Shown: positions 1-28,814, counted from the stretch's first letter. The stretch is DNA of 34,599 bases from a virus (IMGVR_UViG_3300050821_023958:1-34599), one strand, 5' to 3'. Numbers and translations: made by a program. Notes: generated by a model not told the origin, from the sequence alone.

Positions 1-993
1 TCATCCATCGCGTCTCACCCCGTACCTGGTGCCGAGCACGTAGGCGGCGTGGCCGTCGAGCTCGCCGCGGCGTAGATCGTACAGGCGCGTGGTCCGCGGG
101 TCGGCGTGGTGCGCGAGGTCCTGCGCTTTGCGGAGGTCACCGGTCGCGTCCAGGGTTTCGGTGATGGCCGTGTGGCGCAGCGAGTGCGGGGAAAGCCGGT
201 CCGCGCTGGGGATGCCCGCCCTGCGCGCGAGCCGCCGCACCAGCTTCCGCAGGTGCGGCTCGTCAACCGCCCGCCCGGTCCGCGTGACGAAGACCAGCCC
301 CCCCGGGGGTGACCCCCGCGACTCGAGGTAGGCGTCGATGGTTTCGGCGGTCGCGGGGGGGAGCGGGTCGCGGACCGTCTTGCCGCCCTTGTAGATCATC
401 GTCAGTACCCGGTGGCCGCGGTCCCAGCCGAGCCCGCCGATCTCCGCCGTTTCTATCACCGACGCCCGGACAGCGTTCGTGAGCATCAGCCGGATGATCG
501 CCGATGAGCGCAGCCCGTCGGCGTCGGCCGCCGCGATGAGCCGGTCAGCCTCAGCGCGGCTGAGCCCGATGGTGGGGGAACTGTCCTTGTCCAGCTGCGG
601 CCGCTGCCGGGTGTGCGCCGGGTTGTGGTCGAGCAGCGGCACGTCATCGCCGGCGGTGTCTTCGATCAGGTAGTCGTACCAGGACGCCACGACGGAGACG
701 CGCCGCGCGATGCTCGACCTTGCCGCCGGGCCCGCACCCGGCCGGACACCTGTGGTCCGCTGCGCCGCGATCCACCCGTCGACGTCGCTCTTGCGGACGG
801 CCAGCGGGTGGACGCCGCTGCTTTCACACCATGCGAGCCAGTACTTCAGGTCACGCTCGTATGCGCTGCGCGTGTGCCGGGACTCGCAGGAGTCCAGCCA
901 TGCCAGGGTCAGGCGCCGCAGAAGGTCGTCGCGCGGATCGGGGCCGGGCGGGCGGGCGGGCAGCGCCTGGCCAGTCAGTTCGATCTCGGTCAC
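1..993 (-). CDS. int: Tyrosine recombinase / phage integrase
   Basis: This site-specific recombinase would integrate and excise the phage. The 330-residue length is typical. The N-terminal half (about 25-130) matches a SAM-like core-binding domain (TRSAYERDLKYWLAWC). The C-terminal half holds the full catalytic set: R176 (NAVRAS), K202 (YKGGK), H270 and R273 (HSLRHT), H296 and nucleophile Y305 (LAHHADPRTTRLYD). The H270-H296-Y305 spacing equals that of XerD. The gene is complete, and its TGA is the first three bases of the window, so an attachment site could lie just left of the edge. The ATG overlaps the stop of the upstream 109-residue gene (ATGA), so the two are probably translated together from the palindromic control region near 1355-1388. 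Confidence 0.95.
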   Translation of the reverse strand: MTEIELTGQALPARPPGPDPRDDLLRRLTLAWLDSCESRHTRSAYERDLKYWLAWCESSGVHPLAVRKSDVDGWIAAQRTTGVRPGAGPAARSSIARRVSVVASWYDYLIEDTAGDDVPLLDHNPAHTRQRPQLDKDSSPTIGLSRAEADRLIAAADADGLRSSAIIRLMLTNAVRASVIETAEIGGLGWDRGHRVLTMIYKGGKTVRDPLPPATAETIDAYLESRGSPPGGLVFVTRTGRAVDEPHLRKLVRRLARRAGIPSADRLSPHSLRHTAITETLDATGDLRKAQDLAHHADPRTTRLYDLRRGELDGHAAYVLGTRYGVRRDG

Positions 994-1319
994 CGGGACC
1001 CCAATGCCGCGGCCACTGCCTCACCGATCCGCATGTCTACTTCCCGCTGCCCGGCGTCGAGGTCATCCCAGTCGGTCAGCCATGAAGGCTTCGGGTCGGG
1101 TTGCTCGCGGGCCCACGCCACCCATGTTTCGCGGACTATGCGCCCGAGGTCTTCCCTCCGCAGCAGTTGGCCGCCGGTCACGCGGCGCGGGCGCTGCACT
1201 GCCTGGCACGGCCAGTCGTCTCCGCAGTGCCCGCAGAACTCCTTTCCCTGATTGTCCAGGGCGGGGTTCTTCCAGTGCTGCTCAGGCGGGTCCTGCCGGT
1301 AGCTATCTCGCAGGCTCAT
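990..1319 (-). CDS. Small Cys-containing protein upstream of int
   Basis: This 109-residue soluble protein has no function I can name. It has a cysteine cluster near the N-terminus (C29, C32, C38 in EFCGHCGDDWPC) that could bind zinc. A C-terminal segment (WDDLDAGQREVDMRIGEAV) resembles short conserved phage proteins from actinobacteria. It is the first gene of the leftward integrase transcript and shares 4 bases with int. A purine-rich stretch (GGAAGGGGTGAG) lies upstream of its ATG. Its position between a lysogeny control region and int would suit a recombination or lysogeny accessory role, but that is inference. Confidence 0.75.
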   Translation of the reverse strand: MSLRDSYRQDPPEQHWKNPALDNQGKEFCGHCGDDWPCQAVQRPRRVTGGQLLRREDLGRIVRETWVAWAREQPDPKPSWLTDWDDLDAGQREVDMRIGEAVAAALGSR

Positions 1320-1352
1320 TGCCCGCTCACCCCTTCCAGGCCGAATGGGTTC

Positions 1353-1388
1353 AGCATATACCGGATAAGGTGCATTATCCGGTATATG
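1353..1388. promoter_or_regulatory. Perfect 14-bp inverted repeat in the int/regulator divergent region
   Basis: The arms CATATACCGGATAA (1355-1368) and its exact reverse complement (1375-1388) flank a 6-base spacer. The element lies between the leftward int operon (ATG at 1319) and the rightward HTH gene (GTG at 1472). Read leftward, the left edge includes TATGCT (1358-1353), a plausible -10 box for the int operon. This fits an operator for a dimeric regulator, most simply the adjacent XRE protein. No T-run follows, so a terminator is less likely. Confidence 0.7.
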
Positions 1389-1471
1389 TGGGAGGCTGGT
1401 TTACGTGTCGCTGACACTCTCTTGACACAATGTCCACATCATGCGGGACACATCGTTTACGGTGGTTCCTT

Positions 1472-1720
1472 GTGCGTAACGCCGACCTCGCCGTGATTGC
1501 CCGTATCCGCGCGGACCTCGCGTCCGGTGCGGCGCGGGCGGCGCGGGAGGCGGCGATGGTGAGCCGCGCTGATGTCGCGGCCGCCGCGGGGGTGTCGAGG
1601 CAGACGGTGTTCGCGTGGGAAACAGGCAAGGCGGTGCCGTCGGCCCGCAACGCCCTGAACTATGCGCGGGCGCTGGCCGCCGCGGTCCCGCAGCCTGCCG
1701 CCATGGCGAGCGGAACCTGA
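1472..1720 (+). CDS. Small XRE-family helix-turn-helix regulator
   Basis: This 82-residue DNA-binding protein is probably the phage Cro/CI-like switch regulator. The helix-turn-helix covers about residues 31-57 (SRADVAAAAGVSRQTVFAWE followed by TGK), with the typical xxSRQTVFxWExG recognition-helix pattern. I chose GTG 1472 because GGTGG lies 6 bases upstream. An ATG at 1430 would add 14 residues unlike the family and overlaps the putative promoter. The protein is near the minimal length for an XRE domain and has no protease or oligomerisation domain, so it is closer to Cro or a small immunity repressor than to lambda CI. It faces the int operon across the 1355-1388 palindrome, its likeliest target. 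Confidence 0.8.
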   Translation: MRNADLAVIARIRADLASGAARAAREAAMVSRADVAAAAGVSRQTVFAWETGKAVPSARNALNYARALAAAVPQPAAMASGT

Positions 1721-1755
1721 CAAAACGGACAAATAGGGAGTGGGGGAAATGTGTG

Positions 1756-1950
1756 ATGCCCGAACTGGCTGACCTGCCCTGGCGATGGGGCCGCAAGGTA
1801 GGCCGCACCATCTACGCCCAGCTCGGGCCGGAGCCGTCCGACGATGACACGCTGATCGGCACGATGGACACCGACGTGCTGGCTGCGGTCGCGGTCGCGG
1901 CGCACAACCTCGTGCTGCGCAACAGGATCGTGCCGGAGGAGCGGCCATGA
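1756..1950 (+). CDS. Small phage protein, unknown function
   Basis: This 64-residue protein begins MPELADLPWRWGRKVGRTIY. It has a basic N-terminal half followed by an acidic DDD patch and an Ala/Val-rich helix (DVLAAVAVAAHNLVL). I do not recognise the family. ATG 1756 is preceded by a G-rich stretch (GGGAGTGGGGG). The stop overlaps the next gene's ATG (ATGA), and it ends VPEERP, like the next gene's PEERP ending. It belongs to the rightward early operon behind the HTH regulator. Confidence 0.65.
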   Translation: MPELADLPWRWGRKVGRTIYAQLGPEPSDDDTLIGTMDTDVLAAVAVAAHNLVLRNRIVPEERP

Positions 1951-2156
1951 GGGGCGTCACGCCGGACGGCAGGATCGTCGAGCTGACACCGGACCAGGCC
2001 CTCCTCGTCCTGGCCATCGGCCAGTGGGCGACAGCCAACAAGCAGATCGTGCTGCCGATGGCCAGCAGGGGCGACGGGAAGTCGGTGATCCTCGCGACGG
2101 TCGCGGAGTACGACAAGCGCGGCTGGCCCGATGACCTGCCGGAGGAGCGGCCATGA
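1947..2156 (+). CDS. Small protein with a GDGKS P-loop-like motif
   Basis: This 69-residue protein holds PMASRGDGKSVILATVAEYD at about residues 37-56. The GDGKS resembles the end of a Walker A loop preceded by a hydrophobic strand (KQIVLPMAS). There is no room for a Walker B or the rest of an ATPase, so it is either a very short protein with a chance match or a remnant. The ATG overlaps the previous stop, and its own stop overlaps the next ATG, indicating tight translational coupling. Function unknown. Confidence 0.65.
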   Translation: MRGVTPDGRIVELTPDQALLVLAIGQWATANKQIVLPMASRGDGKSVILATVAEYDKRGWPDDLPEERP

Positions 2157-2521
2157 CCGAGACCACCCCCGGCAAGGCGCTGCTGATCCACGTCCGCAAG
2201 ATCCTGGACGAGCGCTGGCCGATGCGCGACGTGCCCGGTCACGCGAAGCCGCCCGAGGGCCTGCGCCTGGAACTGCACCCGCTGGCGGCCAACCACCTGT
2301 TCACCGACTCGTCGCTGGGCTGGAAGTACAGCGACGGGTCGCCGTCTGAGCAGCTAGCAGCAGCAGACAAGTTCGGCCTGCCGGTGAAGATCCTCGGCCT
2401 GGACCTGGAGCCCGGCGCCTGGCGGCTGGTCATCGTCACCGAGGAAGTGCTGGACGGCGGCAGGATGCCGGACGGCACACCCGGGCACAACGAGATGGAG
2501 CCCTCGCCGCATGTCCGCTGA
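2153..2521 (+). CDS. Small phage protein, unknown function
   Basis: This 122-residue soluble protein begins MTETTPGKALLIHVRKILDE. It contains a Trp/Leu-rich mixed alpha/beta stretch (KILGLDLEPGAWRLVIVTEE) and no motif that I recognise. It overlaps the previous gene by 4 bases and the following glycosyltransferase by 11 bases. The GT2/GH26 pair is therefore embedded in, and translationally coupled to, the phage early operon rather than sitting as a separate cassette with its own promoter. Confidence 0.7.
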   Translation: MTETTPGKALLIHVRKILDERWPMRDVPGHAKPPEGLRLELHPLAANHLFTDSSLGWKYSDGSPSEQLAAADKFGLPVKILGLDLEPGAWRLVIVTEEVLDGGRMPDGTPGHNEMEPSPHVR

Positions 2522-4064
2522 GACCCTGCCCGACGGTTTCCCTGCCCTCCGCCCGCGGCGTGACGCCACGGCGGTGGGCCTCGAGCAGCTGACCCGGATC
2601 GCTTCCGGCCAGGCGGCCGCCGCCGTCACCGAGCCGATCGCGTCCGTCACCGCCACCCGCCCGCTCCCCGCGGTCCGGACGCAGCCCGCGCGGCCCGCCC
2701 CCGCCCGCCCGGATGTTGTCCGTGCCGCGCGGCGGGAAACACGCCGCCACCGGATCTTCATCACCATACTGATGACCCTCACCGTCGGGGCGCTGTACGC
2801 GCTGCAGCAGTACCTGTGGCCGCATAACTTCGCGCCCGCCGACATCACGCAGCGGTTCTGGTCGTGGGCCGGCCTCGTGTGGGTGATCGGCGCGGTACCC
2901 GCCGTCTTCGAGCTCGCCGGCCTGTACCTGTGGCGCGCACCGGACGTGAGCCCGGTGGGGATACCGCAGCTGGTGTGCTGGCGGATCGTCAGCAAGGGCA
3001 TCAACACCGAGGCGCTCACCCATACGATCCTCACGACGCGGGCGGAGATGGCGCGGACGCCGCTGTTCCGGTACGTGATCGAGGTCGTGATGGATTCCAA
3101 CCCGGACGGCAGCGGACTCCCCCGCCCCGGCCCGGACCTGAACTACCTGATCGTCCCGGCGGGCTACCAGACCCCGGGCGGGACGCTGGCGAAGGCCCGC
3201 GCGCTGAACTATGCGCTGTGGCATTCCCCCCTCGGCCGGTTCGGGTGGATTGTGCACAACGATGAGGAATCCTGCCCGACCCGGGCGGTGATCATCGGGA
3301 TCGCGAACATGATCCGCGAAGAGGAAGCGGGCCGCCCGGACCGGCCGCGGATCGGGCAGGGCATGATTTCCTACCACCGCAAATGGGAGCAGTTCCCGCT
3401 GATGACCCTGTCGGACTGCATCCGCACCGGCAGCGACATGGGGCGGCTGTACCTGTCGATGCTGATCGGGGCGCCGCTGTTCGGGCTGCACGGGTCGTTC
3501 ATCGTCATCCGCAACGACGTTGAGCGGGCGGTCGGGTTCGACATCGGGCCGCTCGGCTCCCTCACCGAGGACGCCTGGTGGGGCACGATCGCGATGGACC
3601 GCGGGTACCGGTGCCGGTGGGTGCACGGCCACATGGCTGAGCAGTGCACCCAGAAACCCGCCGATTTCATTAAGCAGCGGCGCCGCTGGTTCAACGGCCT
3701 GTCCCGCACCACCCTTTACGCGCCGGCCCGGTTCCGGTGGCGGGCCGTCATCGGCGTCGCGCTGATCGCGTGGGCCAGCGCCCCCCTCGCCTGGGCGTAC
3801 ACCATCGGGCACCTGGTCCACGGCGGGTACATCAACCCTGAAGTGCGGGCGCTCGCGAACTTCTCGCTGGCCGTGTATGTCGTGACAACGCTGGCCGGCC
3901 TGCGGTTCAATATGCGCGAGCACGGGATAACCCGCCTGACCCAGAAGGCGCGATGGGGACTCACCTGGCTGGCCTGCCTGCCAGCATTCAGCTTCATGGA
4001 AGCCGCCGCCGTAATGTACGGTCTCGCAAGGCCCGCAAAAACCTTTCACGTAGTGAAAAAATAA
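2511..4064 (+). CDS. Processive GT2 glycosyltransferase, Egghead/BRE-3 (beta-mannosyltransferase)-like
   Basis: This 517-residue membrane enzyme probably polymerises or transfers a sugar from a nucleotide sugar at the cytoplasmic membrane. A Pro/Arg-rich N-terminus (1-80) precedes two membrane segments (about 82-102 and 117-140). The GT2 core carries D195 (VVMDSN), D251 (HNDEES), D354 (LTEDAWW) and Q389-RRRW-393, the D,D,D,QxxRW set of processive GT2 enzymes. Three more hydrophobic segments follow (about 411-435, 450-465, 483-504). The block KARALNYAL, HNDEES, IGQGMISYHRKWEQ, PLFGLHGSF, DFIKQRRRWFNGL recalls the Egghead/BRE-3 beta-1,4-mannosyltransferase type more than cellulose synthase. No PilZ domain is seen. 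The next gene is a GH26-like hydrolase, which supports a beta-mannan-type product. The donor sugar is inferred, not shown. Confidence 0.88.
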   Translation: MSAETLPDGFPALRPRRDATAVGLEQLTRIASGQAAAAVTEPIASVTATRPLPAVRTQPARPAPARPDVVRAARRETRRHRIFITILMTLTVGALYALQQYLWPHNFAPADITQRFWSWAGLVWVIGAVPAVFELAGLYLWRAPDVSPVGIPQLVCWRIVSKGINTEALTHTILTTRAEMARTPLFRYVIEVVMDSNPDGSGLPRPGPDLNYLIVPAGYQTPGGTLAKARALNYALWHSPLGRFGWIVHNDEESCPTRAVIIGIANMIREEEAGRPDRPRIGQGMISYHRKWEQFPLMTLSDCIRTGSDMGRLYLSMLIGAPLFGLHGSFIVIRNDVERAVGFDIGPLGSLTEDAWWGTIAMDRGYRCRWVHGHMAEQCTQKPADFIKQRRRWFNGLSRTTLYAPARFRWRAVIGVALIAWASAPLAWAYTIGHLVHGGYINPEVRALANFSLAVYVVTTLAGLRFNMREHGITRLTQKARWGLTWLACLPAFSFMEAAAVMYGLARPAKTFHVVKK

Positions 4065-4984
4065 CCATTGCCGCGGTGACGGTCATCGCGGCGGCCGCGA
4101 TATTGCTAGTCACGCTGCCCCATCCGAGGAGCAATTACATGATCGTCGGTGTCTACCAGCCGAACAGCCCCGGCTCATTCGGGCAGGTAACTGCCTTCAC
4201 CAGTGAGGCCGGGTTCACCCCGAGGCTGCTCAGCTACTACACGGGGACGTCGTTCGCTCAGCCGTTCCCGTCGGCGTTCGCGCAGCAGGCCGCCGGGATC
4301 GGGGCGTCCGTGCTGATCCAGTGGCAGCCCCGCGGAACCAGCAACAAGGCGGTCGCCGGCGGCGCGGAGGATCCCGTGATCAAGGCGATGGCCGCCGCGG
4401 TGAAGGCAGTGAACAGGCAGGTGTGGGTCTCCTACGGGCAGGAGATGAACGGGAACTGGTATGACTGGGCCGCTAAATACCCCGGGGCCGCGTCGTCGAC
4501 CGCGGCGTCGGACTACGTGGCGGCGTACAGGCGCATCCACGACGTGTTCGCCGCGGCCGGGGTCACGAACGTCACGTGGGTGTGGGGCCCGAACGTCGCC
4601 TACGGCGGCTCGTACCCGTTCCAGGCGGTCTACCCCGGTGACACCTACGTCGACGTGATCGGCCTCGACGGGTATTTCGCGCAGCCGTCCGATTCGTTCG
4701 TGTCGCTGTTCGGGCCGTCGATCACGGAGATCCGCGCGTTCACCGGCAAGCCGGTCATGGTCACCGAAACCGGTGTCACCGGGGCGGCGGGGGTGCAGCA
4801 GCTCAAGGACCTGTTCTACGGAATGTCCGTCTACGGCGTGATCGCGCTTGTCTACTTCGACCAGGCGCAAAGCGGTGATTCGACGCACCAGGACTGGCGC
4901 CTTGAGGACAACGCGGCGAACATGGCCGAGTTCAAAACGCTCGTCGCGCAATACGCGGAAAAGCCGCTGATCCGCACAAGTTAG
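3953..4984 (+). CDS. GH26 family glycoside hydrolase (beta-mannanase-like), signal-anchored
   Basis: The enzyme would cleave beta-1,4-mannan-type glycans outside the membrane. Over the 343 residues, an Arg/Lys-rich start (19-36) precedes one hydrophobic segment (37-55), then a TIM-barrel-like domain from about residue 63. GH26 landmarks are the acid/base E164 in YGQEMNGNWYDW and the nucleophile E272 in PVMVTETG, with WVWGPN and YVDVIGLDGY between. The usual HExNG histidine is replaced by Q163. The start is uncertain. ATG 3953 overlaps the GT gene by 112 bases but supplies the basic flank of the membrane anchor. GTG 4076 keeps most of the anchor but has no ribosome site. ATG 4139 has a good GAGGAG site 7 bases upstream but would give a cytosolic protein. 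Confidence 0.87.
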   Translation: MGTHLAGLPASIQLHGSRRRNVRSRKARKNLSRSEKITIAAVTVIAAAAILLVTLPHPRSNYMIVGVYQPNSPGSFGQVTAFTSEAGFTPRLLSYYTGTSFAQPFPSAFAQQAAGIGASVLIQWQPRGTSNKAVAGGAEDPVIKAMAAAVKAVNRQVWVSYGQEMNGNWYDWAAKYPGAASSTAASDYVAAYRRIHDVFAAAGVTNVTWVWGPNVAYGGSYPFQAVYPGDTYVDVIGLDGYFAQPSDSFVSLFGPSITEIRAFTGKPVMVTETGVTGAAGVQQLKDLFYGMSVYGVIALVYFDQAQSGDSTHQDWRLEDNAANMAEFKTLVAQYAEKPLIRTS

Positions 4985-5046
4985 CGCGTTTTTACGCGCG
5001 GATGGCTAGACGCAGCCGCATGCGCGTGGAAAAGTGCAGAAGAAGT

Positions 5047-5074
5047 AAAAAACCCGGCCGCGGGAACGACCGGG
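5047..5074 (-). terminator. Leftward intrinsic terminator-like hairpin
   Basis: On the minus strand, a stem CCCGGTCG / CGGCCGGG with one A-C mismatch and a 6-base loop is followed by six T. In plus orientation the A-run comes first, so it should act only on leftward transcripts. It lies in the 128-base gap between the GH26 and DGQHRY genes, both read rightward, where no leftward gene is visible. Confidence 0.5.
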
Positions 5075-5112
5075 CTGCAACGACCATCAAATCAACCAAG
5101 GGGAATCTTACC

Positions 5113-6036
5113 GTGACAGCCGCACCGCCTCTAGACCCGTTCCAGACCGCCGCCCCGGACCCCGCCGCCGCCCGGCCCCCCGCGCGGGCGGAGCTCATGG
5201 TGATCACCCCGGAGATGGCCCGCGACCGGATGGACCGGCACCGGGAGGTCGTCGAGGGACGCCAGATCGCCGGGATGGGCAAGGCCCGCGACAACCGGCC
5301 GGTCCGCTGGGGGGATGTCACCGCCTACTCCCGTGACATGCAGGCCGGGAACTGGCGGGCCAACGGCGAGACGATCAAGCATGACTGGGACGGCGCTGTC
5401 ATCGACGGGCAGCACCGTTACCTCGCGTGCATGATGGCTGAGACCCCGTTCGAGGCGTGGGTGATCACGGGCCTGGACCCGGACGACCAGGACACCGTCG
5501 ACATCGGCATCAAGCGGAAGCTCGCCGACCAGCTCGCGATCAACGGGGAGGCGAACGCTCCCGCGCTCGCGGCGATCGCCCGCTGGTCGCTGCGCTGGCT
5601 GAAAGGCGTCCGCGGCGGCACCTTCAGGTCCGGCGGGACATTCAACCCGACGCAGCAGGAACTCCTCGAGTACATCGCGCACACCCCCCACCTCCGCGAC
5701 GCGACCAGCTTCGCGATGCGCTCATACGCCCAGTTCCGGCTGGTGCGGCCGTCGGCCTACGGCATGGCGTGGCTGCTGTTCAACGGCAGCAACGCGGTCG
5801 CCGCGCAGGTGTTCTTCGACGGGCTGCTGACCGGCGCGGGCCTGACGCTGAGGCATCCGGTGCTGGAACTGCGGGACCGGCTGATGCACGCGCGGGACCG
5901 GGACGAGAAGATCGGCGAGCAGCAGCAGCTCGCCTGGCTGATCATCGCCTGGAACGCCTTCACGGTTGACAAGAAGCTCGCGCAGCGGGACTTCCCCGCG
6001 GTCATCGGCGCGAAGAACTTCCCCGAACCGGTATAA
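5113..6036 (+). CDS. ParB/sulfiredoxin-like phage protein (DGQHRY motif)
   Basis: This 307-residue protein has a ParB/Srx-type nuclease-like domain at about residues 30-140. The signature VIDGQHRYLACMMAE lies at about 97-111, after WRANGETIKHDWDG, and is followed by the GLDPDDQDTVDIGIKRKLAD block typical of a widespread phage family. The helical C-terminal half has no motif that I know. Members occur in phage replication or early regions and are usually described as ParB-like nucleases or DNA-binding proteins. The precise activity is not established here. GTG 5113 is chosen because AAGGGGA lies 8 bases upstream. An in-frame ATG at 5002 would add a basic tail spanning the terminator-like hairpin. 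It follows the GT2/GH26 pair after a gap. Confidence 0.75.
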   Translation: MTAAPPLDPFQTAAPDPAAARPPARAELMVITPEMARDRMDRHREVVEGRQIAGMGKARDNRPVRWGDVTAYSRDMQAGNWRANGETIKHDWDGAVIDGQHRYLACMMAETPFEAWVITGLDPDDQDTVDIGIKRKLADQLAINGEANAPALAAIARWSLRWLKGVRGGTFRSGGTFNPTQQELLEYIAHTPHLRDATSFAMRSYAQFRLVRPSAYGMAWLLFNGSNAVAAQVFFDGLLTGAGLTLRHPVLELRDRLMHARDRDEKIGEQQQLAWLIIAWNAFTVDKKLAQRDFPAVIGAKNFPEPV

Positions 6037-6042
6037 CTGGCG

Positions 6043-6211
6043 GTGTTCACCTGCCCGTGCTGCGGTGCCGTCTCCGCGCACCCCGCAGGACCTCGAGCAA
6101 GGCTACTGCGGCCTGTGCCACTGGTGGACAGGTGACCCGCAGCTGGGGCCGCCGCACCTGGAGCAGCCGTGTGCCGCCCGGGCTGCCCGTGAGGTGAAGG
6201 AGAGGCTGTGA
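6043..6211 (+). pseudogene. Small CxxC zinc-ribbon protein, apparently frameshifted
   Basis: Two reading frames together encode one recognisable small protein. GTG 6043 starts VFTCPCCGAVSAHP, and the next frame continues QDLEQGYCGLCHWWTGDP from base 6086 to a TGA at 6209-6211. The combined CPCC ... CGLC pattern with GYCGxCHxWTG is common among short actinobacterial and phage zinc-ribbon proteins. Joining the halves needs one base skipped at 6085, within CCCCG. This could be a real mutation, a sequencing indel or a +1 frameshift at CCC-C. The stop overlaps the next gene's GTG, so the 3' frame is the operonic one. Confidence 0.6.
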
Positions 6212-6624
6212 AGACATTCCAGTTCGAGGCCCGCCACGGCCCCGGAACCGGCAATCACGGCAAGTTCATGGTCGGTGTTCTGGACGAGGAGTGGGCCTGG
6301 CTGTCCGGTGTCGACGAGGGCCGCCCCCTGATGCAGGCGTGCGGCTGGTGGGGAGCCGCAACGGACCGCATCTGGGTGTTCGACCTGCAGACCGGTGAGG
6401 GGTGCTTCCTCCATCCGGGCGGATCCGCGCACGCTGACCTCGCCAAGCACCGGGTGTGGGTGTGCCCGCTGTTCGAGCCGTGGCTCACCTGGCTGTATGA
6501 GCAGCTGCGCGGCTGCGCGGCGGAGGACATTCCGGCGCGTCTCGGGGAACTCCCCCGCGTCGTGGACCTGCCCGGCGCGGAGTTCGCGCTGGCCGGGTAC
6601 CGCCGCCCGGGGCCGCAGCCGTGA
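6208..6624 (+). CDS. Hypothetical phage protein
   Basis: This 138-residue soluble protein begins MKTFQFEARHGPGTGNHGKF. It is Trp-rich (EEWAWLSG, ACGWWGAA, PWLTWLY) with predicted alpha/beta character. I see no catalytic motif and do not recognise the family. It starts at a GTG overlapping the upstream stop (GTGA), and its own stop overlaps the next GTG. Coupling places it in the rightward early operon. Confidence 0.7.
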   Translation: MKTFQFEARHGPGTGNHGKFMVGVLDEEWAWLSGVDEGRPLMQACGWWGAATDRIWVFDLQTGEGCFLHPGGSAHADLAKHRVWVCPLFEPWLTWLYEQLRGCAAEDIPARLGELPRVVDLPGAEFALAGYRRPGPQP

Positions 6625-6932
6625 GGGAGGAAACTGTCCCGGCGGTAGCCGAGTTCCCGTTCACCGACCCGGTCACGGGCCGGGAATGCGTGCTGTGCAT
6701 CCCGCCGGGCGGGCGGGTCTACCCGCTGCCGGGGCAGCCGAAGACCGGGGTCCGGCATCCGGGCTGTGACCACCTGGCGGACCTGTCCGTGTCGCTGGAC
6801 GCGTTCTGGTGCCGGGCGTGCCTGTGGAACGGCCGGGTGTCGGGCGCCTGGGCGATAGAAATGATCAGGAAGGTGCGCCAGTCAGGGCCGGGTCTAGTAG
6901 ACCGGCTGGGTGCCGGCGAAGATGGCCGGTGA
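6621..6932 (+). CDS. Hypothetical Cys-containing protein, last gene of the rightward operon
   Basis: This 103-residue protein has scattered cysteines (ECVLC, PGCDH, FWCRACLWNG) that could form a zinc site. The FWCRACxWNGRxSGAW stretch resembles short actinophage proteins. It starts at GTG 6621, overlapping the previous stop. Its last 39 bases run antisense to the 3' end of the leftward 515-residue tail gene, so the early and late operons converge and overlap here. Function unknown. Confidence 0.65.
   Translation: MREETVPAVAEFPFTDPVTGRECVLCIPPGGRVYPLPGQPKTGVRHPGCDHLADLSVSLDAFWCRACLWNGRVSGAWAIEMIRKVRQSGPGLVDRLGAGEDGR
6887..6906. terminator. Hairpin at the convergence of early and late operons
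   Basis: GCCGGGTC, loop TAGTA, then GACCGGC: seven paired bases with one bulged G. It straddles the stop codon of the leftward 515-residue gene and lies in the 3' end of the rightward 103-residue gene. No T-run is present on either strand. It could serve as a weak bidirectional terminator. The call rests on position and pairing only. Confidence 0.35.
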
Positions 6933-8441
6933 CTCGGGTGTCCCGGTGATTTTCGACCACACGTCGTAGCTCTGCCCGGCTGTCAGGGTGACCGCCCCTC
7001 CCCCGGGCCCGACGAGGCACTGCGCGATGTAGCCCCTGCCGGTGCCGCCGAGCAGCCACGACCCGGTGTACCAGGTGACCGGCTCTGCGGGGGCCGTGTA
7101 ATTGCCGCTGGACAGCGGGAACGCGAACTGGACGATAAGCGCCGCCTGACCGGCGGTTTGCCCGGTCGGGTCGATTCTGGTGCCGTCCAGGTCGGATGTC
7201 CACGAAACGTTCACCATCACGAGGCTGAGCGCGGAGATCGGCTGGAAAATAGTCATGGTGGTCCTCCATCGGGGAAGCGCGGGCGCCGCCGTCCACCGGG
7301 CGGTCCCGGGCAGTGCCTGCCAGCGCAACGGGGCCGGTGCCGCGGTCCAGGTGACGGTGCCGGTGCCGCCGGCGGGCACGATAGTGACCGCGACGCCCGT
7401 ACGGCTAGCGGTACGGCCGGCCGGCAGCGGCTTCTGCGGCTGACCGCGGACGGGGCGGCGCAACGGGATGGCGACCGGTCCCGTGCCGCTGTACGTGCCG
7501 TGCTGTGATGTGATCCGGCCGCGGGCGGGCGGCGGCTGCCTGCGCTGCACCCCGGCCGGCTGGTGCAGCGGCGGTGCCGGCGGCCCGCTGCCCGCATAGG
7601 TCCCGGCGCGGCGGATGACCCGGCCGCCCTGCGCGGGCGCCAGCCGGGCCTGGACGGGACGACAGGCCGGCGCCCCGCTGGTGAGCGAGACAGCGGTGTA
7701 CGTTCCCGTGCGGCCCTGCGCCCGGCCGCGTGGCGGCGGCGGAGCCGCAGCCCGCACCGGCCCGGCTGCCGCCCGGACGGCAGCACCGGTCGCCGCCGCG
7801 ATGACGATGATCTGGGCGGCCTCATGCGACGGGGCGGTCCCCCAGGTGCCGCCGCATGAGGATGCGCTGCCCGCTGCCGGGGCCGCCAGGTGATCGACCG
7901 CCGCATGTATCCGGGTTGACGTCCCGGCGTCGCTCGCGTCGTTCGTGAACGCCGCATCAGGGGTCCACGTGACCGTCGCGGCTACGGCGATCAGCTCGAC
8001 GTGGCAGCACAGCGCGTACTCCCCCGCCGCGGCGACGTTCCCCGCCGTGGTCACCGTCAGCGGGTTCGCGGTCGTCCCGGTCAGCCCCGACGTCCCCCAG
8101 GTGTCCCCCGGGGAGGCCGTGTTGCCGCCGGTGAACTCGTACAGGGTGCAGGACATCGCGGCGGTGCTGGTCAGCGTCGAGCTGAACGACGGCGCCGCAT
8201 CCCCGCCTGCCGCTGTCAGGCTGAAGAACGCTACCTGCGTATGACCCTCGGCGGCCTGCGGCCCGACAAGCGCCCAGGAGCCGCTGGCCGTGATCGTGGT
8301 GACGCTTGTCGCGGCACCCGCGGAAACCGCGGCGATCAGCAGGTTCCCGGCGGTGCGGTTCTGCCCCGTTCCCCACGTTCCCGTGACCGGGCTGGTGGTG
8401 GACCGCGTCAGGGCGGGCGTGCCTACCGGGGTGACGGTCAT
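6894..8441 (-). CDS. Tail-fibre-like structural protein, possible two-gene fusion
   Basis: This 515-residue protein is the last gene of the late region. Residues about 1-220 are Thr/Ser/Ala/Gly-rich beta sequence, similar in style to the 239-residue protein encoded at 12268-12987. Residues about 225-350 form a Pro/Arg-rich stretch with imperfect repeats (RTGTYTAVS, RRAGTYAGSG, SQHGTYSGTG). Residues about 396-515 form a separate beta domain. An internal ATG at 7256 has a GGAGG site 6 bases upstream and would give an independent 120-residue protein in the same frame, so two genes may have fused or internal initiation occurs. It ends with TAG. Receptor-binding or tip function is inferred from position. 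Confidence 0.7.
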   Translation of the reverse strand: MTVTPVGTPALTRSTTSPVTGTWGTGQNRTAGNLLIAAVSAGAATSVTTITASGSWALVGPQAAEGHTQVAFFSLTAAGGDAAPSFSSTLTSTAAMSCTLYEFTGGNTASPGDTWGTSGLTGTTANPLTVTTAGNVAAAGEYALCCHVELIAVAATVTWTPDAAFTNDASDAGTSTRIHAAVDHLAAPAAGSASSCGGTWGTAPSHEAAQIIVIAAATGAAVRAAAGPVRAAAPPPPRGRAQGRTGTYTAVSLTSGAPACRPVQARLAPAQGGRVIRRAGTYAGSGPPAPPLHQPAGVQRRQPPPARGRITSQHGTYSGTGPVAIPLRRPVRGQPQKPLPAGRTASRTGVAVTIVPAGGTGTVTWTAAPAPLRWQALPGTARWTAAPALPRWRTTMTIFQPISALSLVMVNVSWTSDLDGTRIDPTGQTAGQAALIVQFAFPLSSGNYTAPAEPVTWYTGSWLLGGTGRGYIAQCLVGPGGGAVTLTAGQSYDVWSKITGTPESPAIFAGTQPVY

Positions 8442-16813: not shown

Positions 16814-19800
16814 TCAGGAGCCTCCCCGCGGGTAGCGGCTCGCGAACGACGCTGCCTGTGCCGCGCCGCTGAGCGCACCGCCGACGTGCCGCCCCACCCC
16901 GGCGGGGACAGCGCCAGTGACCGCGATGAGCCGGTCGAGCCGGTCGAGGATCGCCGCGGCGGAGTCCCCGTCGCCGCCCCTCGACCCGGCCGGGCTGATG
17001 TACTCCGGTCCGTGCTCACCCATCGTGTAGACCGTGCCGGTGGACAGGCCGTAGCCGACCACCGGCTCAGTCAGCCAGCCGCCGCCCGCGTACCCGACGT
17101 AGTTGCCGCCCAGCAGGCCGGGGATGTTCGCCGGGCTGCCGTAGGTGGCCATGATGTACCGCAGGCTGGCGACCAGGTTGGCGACCGGGTCAAGGATGGA
17201 GCCGCCCTCTCCGTACGCCGCGAACGTCGCCGGCAACAGCTGAGCGATCCCGGTAGCATGCTGCCCGTCCACCAGGATCGGGTCGACCGCGGTGGGGCTG
17301 CCCCCCGATTCCTTGGAGACCAGGGTTTCCATCAGCCCCAGCCAGGACGCGGGCGCCCCGACCTTGCCCAGCGCCTGGGTGATCCACCCGGCGACGCTGC
17401 TGCCCATCGCCGTAACCGAGCCCTTGACCGCCCCGGCAGAGCCGGTGATGCCGTTGATCAGGCCCTGCATCAGGTGCTTGCCGATGTCGTAGAACACCCG
17501 GGACGGGGAGAAGACGCCGAGCACGGTCTTGAACGCGTTGACGATCCCGCTGCCCAGGGACTTGAACCAGCCCAGGATGGCCGTTCCGACCGACTTCAGG
17601 CCGGACCAGAAGTCGTTGAGCACGGCTGCGCCGATGGTCTTCAGCTTGGCGCCGATGTTCAGCGCTGCCTCGATACCGGCCGCGATGGTGTTCTTGAAGT
17701 AGTTCACGATGGTGGTCCACACCGACCGGACCGTGCTGTAAACCGTGTTCCACGCTGTGGACAGCACGGACTCAACGGTGGCGACCGTGGAGCGGAACGA
17801 CGCGACCATCGCAGCCCACCAGGACACGAACCAGCTCGAAATCGCGTTCCAGACAGTTTTGACTGTGCCTTCTACGCTCGTCCAGGCAGCCGAGAAAATG
17901 CTCTCGACTGTGGAAATGATCGTTTTCCACCCGGATATCTCAGCGTTCCACCAGGCGGTGAAGAACGCGGCGATAGCGTCCCACGCGGCCTTGAGCGTGG
18001 AGGTGATGGAATCCCACGCGGTCTTGAAAAAGCCCTCGACCGCGGTGATCACGGCCATGATGTCGTGCCAGATGGTGTTCCAGTGCTGGTACAGCTCAAT
18101 CGCGGCGAGCGCGAGCAGCCCGGCCGGGCCTAGCAGCGGCAGCAGGTACTTGCCGATCCCGTTGTAGATGAAGTTCCAGGCGTCTGCGGCCGCCGCCTTG
18201 ATCGCGTTCCACACGGTGGTCCAGTGGGTGACCAGCTCGTAGATCGCGGCACCGAGGGCGGCCAGGGCGATCACGATGAGCGCGATCGGGTTGGCGTTCA
18301 GCGCCACGTCCAGGATGGCCTGCGCGACGGCCCACGCCTTGGTGGCGACGGTCACCAGCAGGTCCCAGGCGTACATGGCTTTCAGCGCGATGGTCTCAAG
18401 GTCGAACAGGGCGGTCAGGGCAGCGACGCCCTTGGTGGCCAGTTCCCACAGCTTCATCGCGGCGACGATCCCCAGGACGCCGACGACGATGCCGCCGAGC
18501 ACGTTCGGCGATACCGCGTTGATGATCGCGGCGAAGGCGGTGGCCACCCCGGAGATCGCGGCGACCACGGCCCCGGTGAATACCCCGGCAAGCTGGAGGA
18601 ACAGAGGCAGGACGACAGGCAGGAGACTTGCGAGGGTCCCGAGCACGGTAGTGGCCAGGGTGGTCAGCGGCGGGAGCAGCACCGTGATGGCCTGCACGAG
18701 CCCGTTCGCGAGCATCGTGCTGAGCTGGGCGATGAACTGGATGACTACGGGGAGTATCGGGGTCAGCCCGTTGAGCAGCGCGTTGATCAGGGTGGCCAGC
18801 GGCTTGGCCAGGGCCTCCACGGCGTTGCCGAGGGTGGCGAACACGCCGTTGTTTTCCAGCACGGTGAAGATGCCAGAAAACGCCTGCGCGAAAGCTGTCA
18901 GAGCCGGGGCGATATCAGTCAGCAGAGTTGCCAGCGCGCCGAACGCGGACACAAGGTCACCCAGGATGGCCCCGGCCAGCGCGGCGAGTACCTTGCCGAC
19001 GATCGTCAGGAACGGCAGCAGCGCCTTGACCACCCCGGCGAACTGGATGAACACGGGCGCCAGGGCCGTGGCGAAGACGCCAGCCAGCTTGGCGATGATG
19101 GGCAGCAGCGCGCCGATCACGTCGAACAGCGCCTTCAGCAGCACGCCGGACGGGACGAGGACGGGCGCCAGGTCAGCGAAGAACGACCCGAGGTCCTTGC
19201 CCAGCGTGCCGAACACGGACGACAGGGCCGCCACGGCGGGGGCCGCTGCCTTCAGCAGCGTGACCAGGCCGGGCAGGAAGTTGCCGATCAGCGAGCCCAG
19301 CCCGTCCAGCAGCGGCCTGATCAGCGGCGCAGACGATGAGATGACCTGGGCCAGGGATGGCAGGATGGACTTCACCACGTCGCCCAGCCCGGCGATCAGC
19401 GGCTGGGCAACCGTGAACGCCGAGGTGAAGAACTGGGTGAAGGGACCGGTCAGCCCCTGGAGCAGGGAGGCGACCTGGTGGAGCGGCCCGGCGAACTTCG
19501 GCGCGAAGCTGGCCGTGAATCCCTGCCACCAGTTGCCGATCTGCTGCTCGGAGTTGTAGATGCTCTTGAGCCCCGGACCCAGTGCATTGACGCCCTGGTT
19601 GAGCTGGGCCTGCTGCTGCGCGAGCTGCTGCGCGCCCTGCGAGGTGGCCCCGAGCCCGGCTGCCTGCTCACTCTGGATCGTTGACGAGAGCTGAGTCAGC
19701 GGCGAGACGCTGCTCTGCGCGCCTTTGAACAGCAGCCCGAGCGCCCCGGCGCCGGCGCCGAGCCCGATCGCCGGGGCCAGGCCGCCGAGCAGCGCGGGGA

Positions 19801-20542
19801 TAGCTCCCAGCACAGGAGCGCCGAGCCCGAGGATACCGGCCGACTTGAGTCCCAGGCCGGGGATGGACGGGCCGATCCCTCCGAGCAGGTTGCCCAGGAA
19901 CGACCCGCTGGACCCGCCGCCCTTGCTAGGCGTGCCTCCGCCGCTGCCGCCTCCCCCGCCGATGTGCCCGGCCAGGAACCCGGCGACTCCCCCGAGCAGG
20001 CCGCCTAGCCACCCGGAGCCGTTCTTGCGTGTCTCGTCGCTGGCTGCCTTGTTGGCGGCGTCGGCGGCGTCCCTGCCCGCCTTGGCGGCCTCGGCCTTGA
20101 GCTGGGCGTCATTACCGACGCCCAGCACCGTAGCGATGGTGGAGGTTGTCCGCGTCGAGCTGCTGTTGTTCGACGTGCCCGGGCCGCCACCGCCAGGTCC
20201 CGAGATGATCTTGCCCAGCAGGCCGCTCTGGGCCGCCTGCTGCGGGCTCGGGGCGCCGGTGACCGGGTGCGGGGAAAACAGCGCGTTCAGCGCCCCCAGC
20301 ACGGACCCTTGCGGGCTGCTGCGCAGCCGCGACATGGCGTCATTGGAGATCGCCTGGTCCAGCCGGCTGAATGCCTGCCGCGCCTTGCTGGTGCTCGCGT
20401 TGTCGAAGACCGCCGAGACTTTAACCTCATGCCTGGCGTCCTCGAGCGCCTTGACGCGGGCCTCGATCTTGTCGAGGTCCGCGCTGGCCTTCGCCGTGTT
20501 GATCGACAGGGTGGCTTCGATTGACCCGGCGTCGAAGCCCAT
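16814..20542 (-). CDS. Tape measure protein with lytic transglycosylase domain
   Basis: This 1242-residue protein sets tail length and is the longest gene here. The N-terminus is coiled-coil-like (LDKIEARVKALEDARHEVKV). Hydrophobic stretches (about 220-760) and Trp-rich repeats (about 790-930, such as KTVWNAISSWFVSWWAAMVA) are typical of tape measures. Near the C-terminus lies an SLT/goose-lysozyme-like domain: the candidate catalytic E at about 1078 (LVSKESGGSP), then HATGIAQLLPATFAAYG and LVASLRYIMATYGSP. This would locally cut peptidoglycan during DNA entry. It sits between the chaperone pair and the Dit-like gene, the canonical order. ATG 20542 has an AAAGGCGGGTGG stretch upstream. Confidence 0.95.
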   Translation of the reverse strand: MGFDAGSIEATLSINTAKASADLDKIEARVKALEDARHEVKVSAVFDNASTSKARQAFSRLDQAISNDAMSRLRSSPQGSVLGALNALFSPHPVTGAPSPQQAAQSGLLGKIISGPGGGGPGTSNNSSSTRTTSTIATVLGVGNDAQLKAEAAKAGRDAADAANKAASDETRKNGSGWLGGLLGGVAGFLAGHIGGGGGSGGGTPSKGGGSSGSFLGNLLGGIGPSIPGLGLKSAGILGLGAPVLGAIPALLGGLAPAIGLGAGAGALGLLFKGAQSSVSPLTQLSSTIQSEQAAGLGATSQGAQQLAQQQAQLNQGVNALGPGLKSIYNSEQQIGNWWQGFTASFAPKFAGPLHQVASLLQGLTGPFTQFFTSAFTVAQPLIAGLGDVVKSILPSLAQVISSSAPLIRPLLDGLGSLIGNFLPGLVTLLKAAAPAVAALSSVFGTLGKDLGSFFADLAPVLVPSGVLLKALFDVIGALLPIIAKLAGVFATALAPVFIQFAGVVKALLPFLTIVGKVLAALAGAILGDLVSAFGALATLLTDIAPALTAFAQAFSGIFTVLENNGVFATLGNAVEALAKPLATLINALLNGLTPILPVVIQFIAQLSTMLANGLVQAITVLLPPLTTLATTVLGTLASLLPVVLPLFLQLAGVFTGAVVAAISGVATAFAAIINAVSPNVLGGIVVGVLGIVAAMKLWELATKGVAALTALFDLETIALKAMYAWDLLVTVATKAWAVAQAILDVALNANPIALIVIALAALGAAIYELVTHWTTVWNAIKAAAADAWNFIYNGIGKYLLPLLGPAGLLALAAIELYQHWNTIWHDIMAVITAVEGFFKTAWDSITSTLKAAWDAIAAFFTAWWNAEISGWKTIISTVESIFSAAWTSVEGTVKTVWNAISSWFVSWWAAMVASFRSTVATVESVLSTAWNTVYSTVRSVWTTIVNYFKNTIAAGIEAALNIGAKLKTIGAAVLNDFWSGLKSVGTAILGWFKSLGSGIVNAFKTVLGVFSPSRVFYDIGKHLMQGLINGITGSAGAVKGSVTAMGSSVAGWITQALGKVGAPASWLGLMETLVSKESGGSPTAVDPILVDGQHATGIAQLLPATFAAYGEGGSILDPVANLVASLRYIMATYGSPANIPGLLGGNYVGYAGGGWLTEPVVGYGLSTGTVYTMGEHGPEYISPAGSRGGDGDSAAAILDRLDRLIAVTGAVPAGVGRHVGGALSGAAQAASFASRYPRGGS

Positions 20543-27902: not shown

Positions 27903-28814
27903 CTACACCCCGCTCAGCAGGCAGATCGCCAGCGGCTGGTCCAGGCCGATAGCGCTGGACCGCTGCGTGTCGGACCGCCACGCCTTGTTCGTCTCCTGCC
28001 GGTACAGCGGCCCGGCGAGGAACGGCAGTTCGTCGGCGAAGAAGCCGCAGCGGTGCCGCTGCATGATGATCGCGTTCCCGGCCGGCACCTGGCGGCTGAC
28101 CAAAACATCCAGGTTGAAGATCTTGTTCGGCAGCACACCGGTGTACTGCAAGTTTTCCGACGCGATATCGCCGATATATGGCGCCGCGAATGTGCTGCTT
28201 TGAAGCAGCGTGTTTTTGGTGCCGTGGTTAATGATCAAGGTATCGGCCTCGAAGCCGAGCCACTGCGTAACGCCAGAAGGCGAAACTATGTTCGCGTTCT
28301 CGACGAGGTACACGCCCTGCGCGATGTCGGCGCGGGTCGTCGCCGAAGCGGACGCCCACGGGTTCGCGACGGCCAGCGTCTGGATGGACGCGTTCGCGAC
28401 GACCGCAGAGTAGAACGCCGTGTTCCAGCTGTAGACCATCGTGTTCTTGACCTGCAGCAACTGCCGCGTCACAGGGTCGATGGTCTGCCGGCGCCGCATC
28501 TCGTCCGACACCATGATCGCCATGGCGCGCTCATGGCTGAACACCACGCGCGGCACGCCGATCGACGTCGGCACGACGGGCACTTCACCGAACTCAGGGC
28601 GGATTTCGGGGAAGTCGTCGGCGTACAGCGGCGTCGACTCGCTGTACCGGACAGCGCCGGACGGGGCCGCGCCGCCCATCCGCAGCACCGAGTCCATGAT
28701 GAACTCGTTCTGCGTGATGTCGAGGATGAGCGCCGGGATGACCAGGGGGTCTTTCAGCAGCTCGTTGACGGTGATTCTCGGGGCATCTGAGTACCCGCGT
28801 GCGCCGGTTGGCAT
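27903..28814 (-). CDS. Major capsid protein (HK97 fold type)
   Basis: This 303-residue protein follows the protease/scaffold and decoration genes, the classic capsid order. Sequence support includes FSHERAMAIMVSDEMRRRQT (spine-helix-like), MVYSWNTAFYSAVVANA and DTLIINHGTKNTLL, then VLVSRQVPAGNAIIMQRHRC (P-domain/A-domain strands typical of HK97-like coat proteins). It ends near LAICLLSGV. The short N-terminal arm agrees with scaffold function being supplied by the separate protease/scaffold gene. Confidence 0.88.
   Translation of the reverse strand: MPTGARGYSDAPRITVNELLKDPLVIPALILDITQNEFIMDSVLRMGGAAPSGAVRYSESTPLYADDFPEIRPEFGEVPVVPTSIGVPRVVFSHERAMAIMVSDEMRRRQTIDPVTRQLLQVKNTMVYSWNTAFYSAVVANASIQTLAVANPWASASATTRADIAQGVYLVENANIVSPSGVTQWLGFEADTLIINHGTKNTLLQSSTFAAPYIGDIASENLQYTGVLPNKIFNLDVLVSRQVPAGNAIIMQRHRCGFFADELPFLAGPLYRQETNKAWRSDTQRSSAIGLDQPLAICLLSGV

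Follow-up and report, generated by a model that had tools for sequence, protein, structure and literature searches.

The window studied here, that is, the whole stretch of DNA analysed (IMGVR_UViG_3300050821_023958:1-34599), comprises 34,599 bases and is a virus record of IMG/VR, in which two overlapping genes on the plus strand encode a membrane-bound family 2 glycosyltransferase (GT2; P0001, positions 2511-4064, 517 amino acids) and a family 26 glycoside hydrolase (GH26; P0002, positions 3953-4984, 343 amino acids). A preliminary description of the locus had reported adjacent GT2 and GH26 genes at 2511-4984 and proposed that they form a phage-borne polysaccharide module of the beta-mannan type. 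Both open reading frames are indeed found there, and both match their Pfam families far above chance: GT2 matches PF13632 with 64.6 bits (cut-off 27; 1.4e-17), and GH26 matches PF02156 with 47.8 bits (cut-off 20.2; 1.6e-12). Base composition is of the coding type in both (G+C content at third and second codon positions is 0.90 and 0.52 for GT2, and 0.85 and 0.49 for GH26), and both genes are real and intact; neither matched any PHROG family. Judged from its integrase, tape measure and capsid genes, the window is a temperate actinophage, a virus of soil actinobacteria. We moderately favour reading the two genes as a compact exopolysaccharide module of actinobacterial type carried by this phage, in which a glucan would be made and trimmed, altering the cell surface.

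The GT2 protein consists of N-terminal hydrophobic helices, a GT-A domain and three C-terminal membrane helices, and ends with FHVVKK. The D,D,D,QxxRW set named in the preliminary description is present as D195, D251, D354 and Q389RRRW393. As to the Egghead/BRE-3 likeness also named there, the match obtained is the one to PF13632, which is a broad family. In an alignment with 25 relatives, the blocks HxDEE, TED and QRxRW are invariant, as are the residues D251, E353, D354, Q389, R390, R392 and W393, and the first Asp, D195, is an Asp in 19 of the 25. At the C-terminal end, which is of the F-x-V-V-x-K type, F512 and K517 are retained in all 25 relatives. The predicted model (predicted local distance difference test score, pLDDT, 86.7) aligns best with E. 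coli BcsA, with a Z score of 23.6 over 365 residues, followed by hyaluronan synthases (Z ~22, with 22.1 for one), PcManGT (Z 21.3) and the mixed-linkage glucan synthase CslF6 (Z 17.5). A search of solved structures with the single GT2 sequence returned noise, while a search with the GT2 alignment retrieved BcsA at 2e-6. The protein thus carries the D,D,TED,QxxRW pattern of processive synthases of the BcsA and hyaluronan synthase type on a GT-A fold with membrane helices. The gating-loop signature of CsBcsA is 503-FAVTAK-508 (PMC10374906); in the structural alignment with CsBcsA the final pair is residue 517 of the model and residue 508 of BcsA, which puts FHVVKK on the gating-loop motif, at the place expected for the FxVTxK type. 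This coincidence with the end of the BcsA gating loop favours a cellulose-synthase-like enzyme. It is not a BcsA in the strict sense: the TIGR03030 equivalog scores 12.6 bits against a cut-off of 699.1, PilZ is missing, and the only match in the NCBIfam search was a sub-threshold one to CelA, for GT2.

The hydrolase is a member of family 26 by its profile score, its TIM-barrel fold and its two catalytic glutamates. E164 (acid/base) and E272 (nucleophile), both pointed out in the preliminary description, correspond in the alignment to E109 and E222 of CtLic26A, a lichenase (beta-1,3;1,4-glucanase) that forms the GH26 domain of Endoglucanase H. CtLic26A is the best match in sequence and in fold, at 24% identity. 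In a search of solved structures with a profile of three phage GH26 proteins it was found at 8e-38, as opposed to 1e-10 for the best mannanase, and the GH26 model (pLDDT 70.6 overall, low at the N-terminus) gives a Z score of 31.1 with CtLic26A (1.8-2.0 A), 24.5-25.2 with family 26 xylanases, and no more than 22.3 with mannanases. With such a fold and both glutamates in place, the concern that the protein might lack the family fold or the catalytic residues can be set aside.

The proposal of a beta-mannan-type module finds no support in these comparisons. The hydrolase lies nearest to a lichenase and not to characterised mannanases, the synthase lies nearest to cellulose and hyaluronan synthases, and the other hydrolases that accompany the synthase in phages are from GH12 and GH16, which are mainly glucanase families. 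GH26 may accordingly cleave beta-1,3;1,4-glucan, and the polymer is probably a beta-glucan rather than a beta-mannan. The alternative, that the module makes and trims beta-1,4-mannan or glucomannan, would fit the fact that the enzymes characterised in GH26 and GH113 are for the most part mannanases, as well as the presence among the closest GT2 folds of the archaeal mannosyltransferase PcManGT. GH113, a beta-mannanase family, adjoins relatives of the synthase in two bacterial loci (L013 and L016), which speaks for mannan in some relatives, and a GH113 gene also lies near GH26 relatives in L072. Set against the much closer match of GH26 to the lichenase, the GH12 and GH16 partners in other phages, and cellulose synthase as the best alignment of GT2, a mannan product appears rather unlikely.

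The position of the hydrolase relative to the membrane depends on its start codon. Read from ATG3953, GH26 begins with a basic segment followed by hydrophobic residues 34-59 and then the enzyme, so that a membrane anchor or signal is probable at the N-terminus. The GH26 of phage locus L002, read from ATG6010, likewise has a basic segment and a hydrophobic stretch, and that of phage locus L003 has a lipoprotein-type signal (LAGC). On the strength of these N-terminal segments we consider it likely that the hydrolase is exported. The catalytic domain may also be translated by itself from an alternative start, ATG4139 (4139-4984, plus strand), which is preceded by GAGGAG. A run of six A before the GT2 stop was considered as a site of programmed frameshifting that would fuse the two proteins, and was rejected since the frames differ among phages: relative to GT2, GH26 is in frame -1 in the window and in L003, where it has a start of its own, and in frame +1 in L002. 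Between the window and L002 synonymous sites are near saturation, for which reason we read only the excess of third-position over second-position change in GT2 (0.55 vs 0.30).

The pair is not private to this genome. A search of IMG/VR with GH26 returned two contigs, in each of which GH26 is immediately preceded by a GT2 from the same family; otherwise the three genomes are linked only by weak matches between their tape measures and by a single short match. A 95.7 kb phage (G028) with portal and tape measure genes carries GH16-GT2-GH16-GT2-GH26 in a row; a 58 kb phage (G029) with integrase and tape measure genes carries GH12-GT2-GH26, beginning ~0.6 kb from its integrase. The complete GenBank phage GX15bay (MK557849.1), from a mangrove virome, carries GT2-GH26-GH26, a fifth contig (L146), found by a GH16 scan, carries GH16-GT2, and two further loci (L124 and L126) carry GT2-GH26. 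Phage GenBank entries and plasmids searched with the window GT2 gave no match. The pair can therefore no longer be regarded as a host insertion found in one genome only; it is internal to phages, it recurs in unrelated phages, and its catalytic residues are retained, all in support of the phage polysaccharide module put forward in the preliminary description. Synthase and endoglycanase are linked and kept together across genomes, according to the same logic as bcsZ and cslZ. We tentatively suggest, with rather less confidence than we have in the module itself, that several soil actinophage lineages may have independently assembled coat-building cassettes from a membrane synthase and one or several matching endoglycanases of GH26, GH16 or GH12.

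Some of the phages with this GT2 family show additional features. RNA-repair-like genes recur among them: TROVE/Ro60 genes are found in G028 and G029, and an RtcB ligase gene in G029 (L033:2745-4415, L039:3552-5135, L038:10323-11525). A phage contig of 28% GC (L076) has a distant GT2 with no adjoining GH26, and an RtcB-like open reading frame in it (L076:2946-4151) was recognised by eye only. Besides a GT4 transferase and an NAD-dependent epimerase, G028 also encodes what may be another transferase (L034:852-2348, 4346-5956), and it may, judging by these genes, edit surface sugars more widely.

Viral glycoside hydrolases in soil have been read in the literature as auxiliary metabolic genes. 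One GH5 endomannanase from among soil viral glycoside hydrolase genes was tested (PMC6786970), and a mangrove viral GH26 was named a mannanase (PMC6460857). By analogy, GH26 in the window could supply the host with nutrients by degrading polysaccharide from plants or microbes, with GT2 being incidental. The surroundings of viral GH26 genes make this improbable. Our broader GH26 scan returned 25 viral loci; GT2 lies directly upstream in 7/7 of the close loci with upstream sequence, and at the distant loci no upstream GT2 was detected with the GT2 profiles used. Three strong GT2-GH26 pairs near contig ends (L122, L123 and L128) were not counted as phage-internal. The association of GH26 with GT2 in bacteria also argues against a role in feeding.

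In bacteria the GT2 family is rare, with 27 loci in ~85,000 genomes in a motif-seeded scan, a number to be taken as a lower bound. The closest relative of the phage synthase, in a member of the Streptosporangiaceae (L004), has a gene for a GH16 lipoprotein 7 bases downstream, and other bacterial GT2 genes have GH26 (L005, L018) or, as described above, GH113 as neighbours. A close GT2 occurs in only 1/343 Streptosporangiaceae genomes and is thus not a common host gene in this family. One GT2 relative, in a contig labelled Zambryskibacteria (L006:4872-6311), contains an in-frame stop, which could reflect a frameshift, a pseudogene or another genetic code.

Relatives of GH26 are more common than the GT2 family (33/297 genomes of the class), and the nearest bacterial ones adjoin GT2 synthases of other subfamilies. 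In actinobacteria, a synthase-type GT2 lies within 3 kb (<=3 kb) in 28/45 windows around the nearest GH26 relatives, and the density of GT2 is 0.091 per kb near GH26 vs 0.003 per kb far from it, a ~30-fold difference, for which the same profiles were counted near and far, one of them built from four such neighbours in the Streptosporangiaceae genome G001. That genome has seven phage-type GH26 genes, several of them directly behind a GT2 with PMT_2 upstream (L071, L073, L074, L075); we read these as a host polysaccharide locus, of which we found no published description. In the half of the GH26 tree to which the phages belong, linkage to GT2 is nearly universal, and in the other half it is mostly absent; within the clade containing the phages, a GT2 is present in the surrounding sequence of 20/21 bacterial rows. 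The window groups with L002 as its sister in the GT2 tree (support 100/98) and in the GH26 tree (100/100), which indicates that their pairs descended together, and L003 stands apart from them in both. The recurrence in phages together with the linkage to GT2 in actinobacteria indicates that phages took up a host-type module of synthase plus endoglycanase.

The genes around the pair in the window are of phage type. To the left, at a distance of 1.5 kb from the cassette, is a tyrosine integrase on the minus strand (1-993; phrog_1, 2.8e-28), whose relatives are integrases of Gordonia and Arthrobacter phages. An HTH_3 regulator (1430-1720, plus strand; PF01381, 2e-11), divergent from the integrase, opens a rightward block in which three small coupled genes (1756-1950, 1947-2156 and 2153-2521, plus strand), all without a match in the Pfam search, lead into GT2. 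To the right, a ParB-like phage gene (5002-6036, plus strand; phrog_5931, 1.6e-51) with relatives in 78 phage records forms the boundary of the cassette. Further along, the tail tape measure protein (16814-20542, minus strand; phrog_305, 2.3e-42) and the major capsid protein (27903-28814, minus strand; phrog_1650, 1.5e-68), the latter with relatives in 274 phage records, almost all of them from actinophages, identify the record as a phage. The nearest relatives of capsid and integrase are mostly from phages of Gordonia, Arthrobacter, Mycobacterium and Streptomyces. The record may be incomplete, since none of the window proteins tested was recognised as a terminase.

With the pair less than 5 kb from the left end of the record, and with GH26 and a host-type GT2 near contig ends also in L122, L123 and L128, one may ask if these are host genes that were included by accident because the edge of a prophage had been called wrongly. 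We regard this as very improbable. Phage genes flank the pair on both sides in the window, with the integrase and HTH_3 regulator on one side and a hairpin followed by the ParB-like gene on the other, and it is internal in G028, in G029 and in GX15bay, which was assembled complete from a virome.

The coupled early operon of the preliminary description is borne out in part. Successive genes from 1756 up to GT2 overlap by 4, 4 and 11 bases, as coupling would have it, and expression may be early. At the end of GH26, a terminator-like hairpin with a T run (4965-4986, plus strand) may close the transcription unit. Both hairpins and promoters were sought by consensus scan only, which found 4 terminator-like hairpins in the scanned region where 2.3 were expected, and no sigma-70 consensus promoter in 900-7000.

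Several known systems resemble the pair. Closest in arrangement is GX15bay, where a GT2 is likewise followed by an overlapping GH26 inside a complete phage genome, though its GT2 is of another subfamily, matching the synthase profile used only weakly (3.9e-10), and a second GH26 is present. The GX15bay genes have been published only as a carbon-degrading 'mannanase' and 'endoglucanase' (PMC6460857); the earlier statement that no described phage module of this kind was known has to be qualified in that such a gene set was already deposited. In the bacterial loci bcsA-bcsB-bcsZ and Streptomyces cslA-glxA-cslZ, a synthase of the same fold is genetically coupled to a glucanase that works on the chain as it emerges (PMC11022532), whereas the phage-borne pair has no BcsB, GlxA or PilZ partner, and its hydrolase is a GH26. 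The mixed-linkage glucan synthase RiGT2 of Romboutsia ilealis shares D,D,D,QxxRW and a gating motif of the FxVTxK type with the phage enzyme (PMC10374906), but requires for its activity a C-terminal PilZ domain, while the phage GT2 stops at that motif.

Viral polysaccharide synthases also exist. Synechococcus phage S-CBWM1 encodes a cellulose-synthase-like GT2, gp158 ('putative cellulose synthase'; L120:5419-7593, MG450654.1 114593-116767), which unlike the window enzyme has a PilZ domain and adjoins an efflux-type membrane protein, with no adjoining annotated endoglycanase. For the chlorovirus hyaluronan and chitin synthases we know of no paired hydrolase. These synthases are similarly virus-coded and early in infection give the cells a polysaccharide coat (PMC5408694); they share the synthase fold with the phage GT2 (Z 22), at ~9% identity, and belong to viruses of eukaryotic algae.

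We thus suggest the following mechanism. GT2 would polymerise a beta-linked hexose from a nucleotide sugar, most likely glucose into a beta-1,4- or mixed beta-1,3;1,4-glucan, and would pass the growing chain across the membrane. GH26, exported and tethered to the membrane, would cut or trim the same chain outside, much as BcsZ or CslZ do for cellulose synthases. Cutting the chain may free it, control its length or clear a way through the wall, as has been suggested for CslZ (PMC11022532). The polymer would then give the infected cell or the lysogen a coat or an altered surface, the probable benefit being a masked phage receptor or a fitter lysogen. Surface coating or receptor masking is our best reading, and is supported by the location of the pair beside the integrase in two phages (GT2 is less than 2 kb from it in the window and in G029), which suits lysogenic conversion without proving it.

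In addition to the GH113 neighbours, a number of observations weigh against this interpretation. In GT2 and in all 25 relatives, the Thr of FxVTxK is replaced by V or I. The enzyme ends at the gating motif with about five membrane helices, fewer than BcsA, and has no PilZ domain, so that its processivity and a closed channel can be inferred at most. Ahead of the acid/base residue, the Arg and His of CtLic26A are replaced by S160 and Q163 in the phage GH26, whose specificity may therefore differ from that of the lichenase. Both ATG4139, with its strong GAGGAG ribosome site, and ATG6124 of L002 outscore the upstream starts, and would predict a cytosolic GH26. Finally, no sugar-nucleotide genes were recognised within the window cassette.

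The short C-terminus and low number of helices would also suit a non-processive membrane GT2, which attaches a single sugar or a few to a lipid or to a glycan of the wall and thereby changes the phage receptor, with GH26 pruning a host glycan and no long polymer being made. The PcManGT-like fold points in the same direction, as does the presence of GtrB in the Foldseek list for the GT2 model; Gtr-type phage transferases that modify receptors are well known. We nevertheless see this as a minority possibility, albeit one to be taken seriously: a hydrolase of an endo-acting family occurs in every pair seen, which suits a polymer, and the enzyme shares with processive synthases the conservation of QRRRW and of the F-x-V-V-x-K type end.

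If the pair does make and trim a glucan as we suggest, phages carry whole modules for the synthesis and trimming of a surface polymer, a bacterial counterpart of the hyaluronan coats of chloroviruses, and the locus would offer direct genetic access to the masking of receptors by prophages. The GH26 clade described here would then serve phage-directed coat synthesis in soil viromes, and not the breakdown of soil carbon, and a share of the 'carbon-degrading' glycoside hydrolases of soil viruses would be halves of coat-making modules rather than feeding enzymes.

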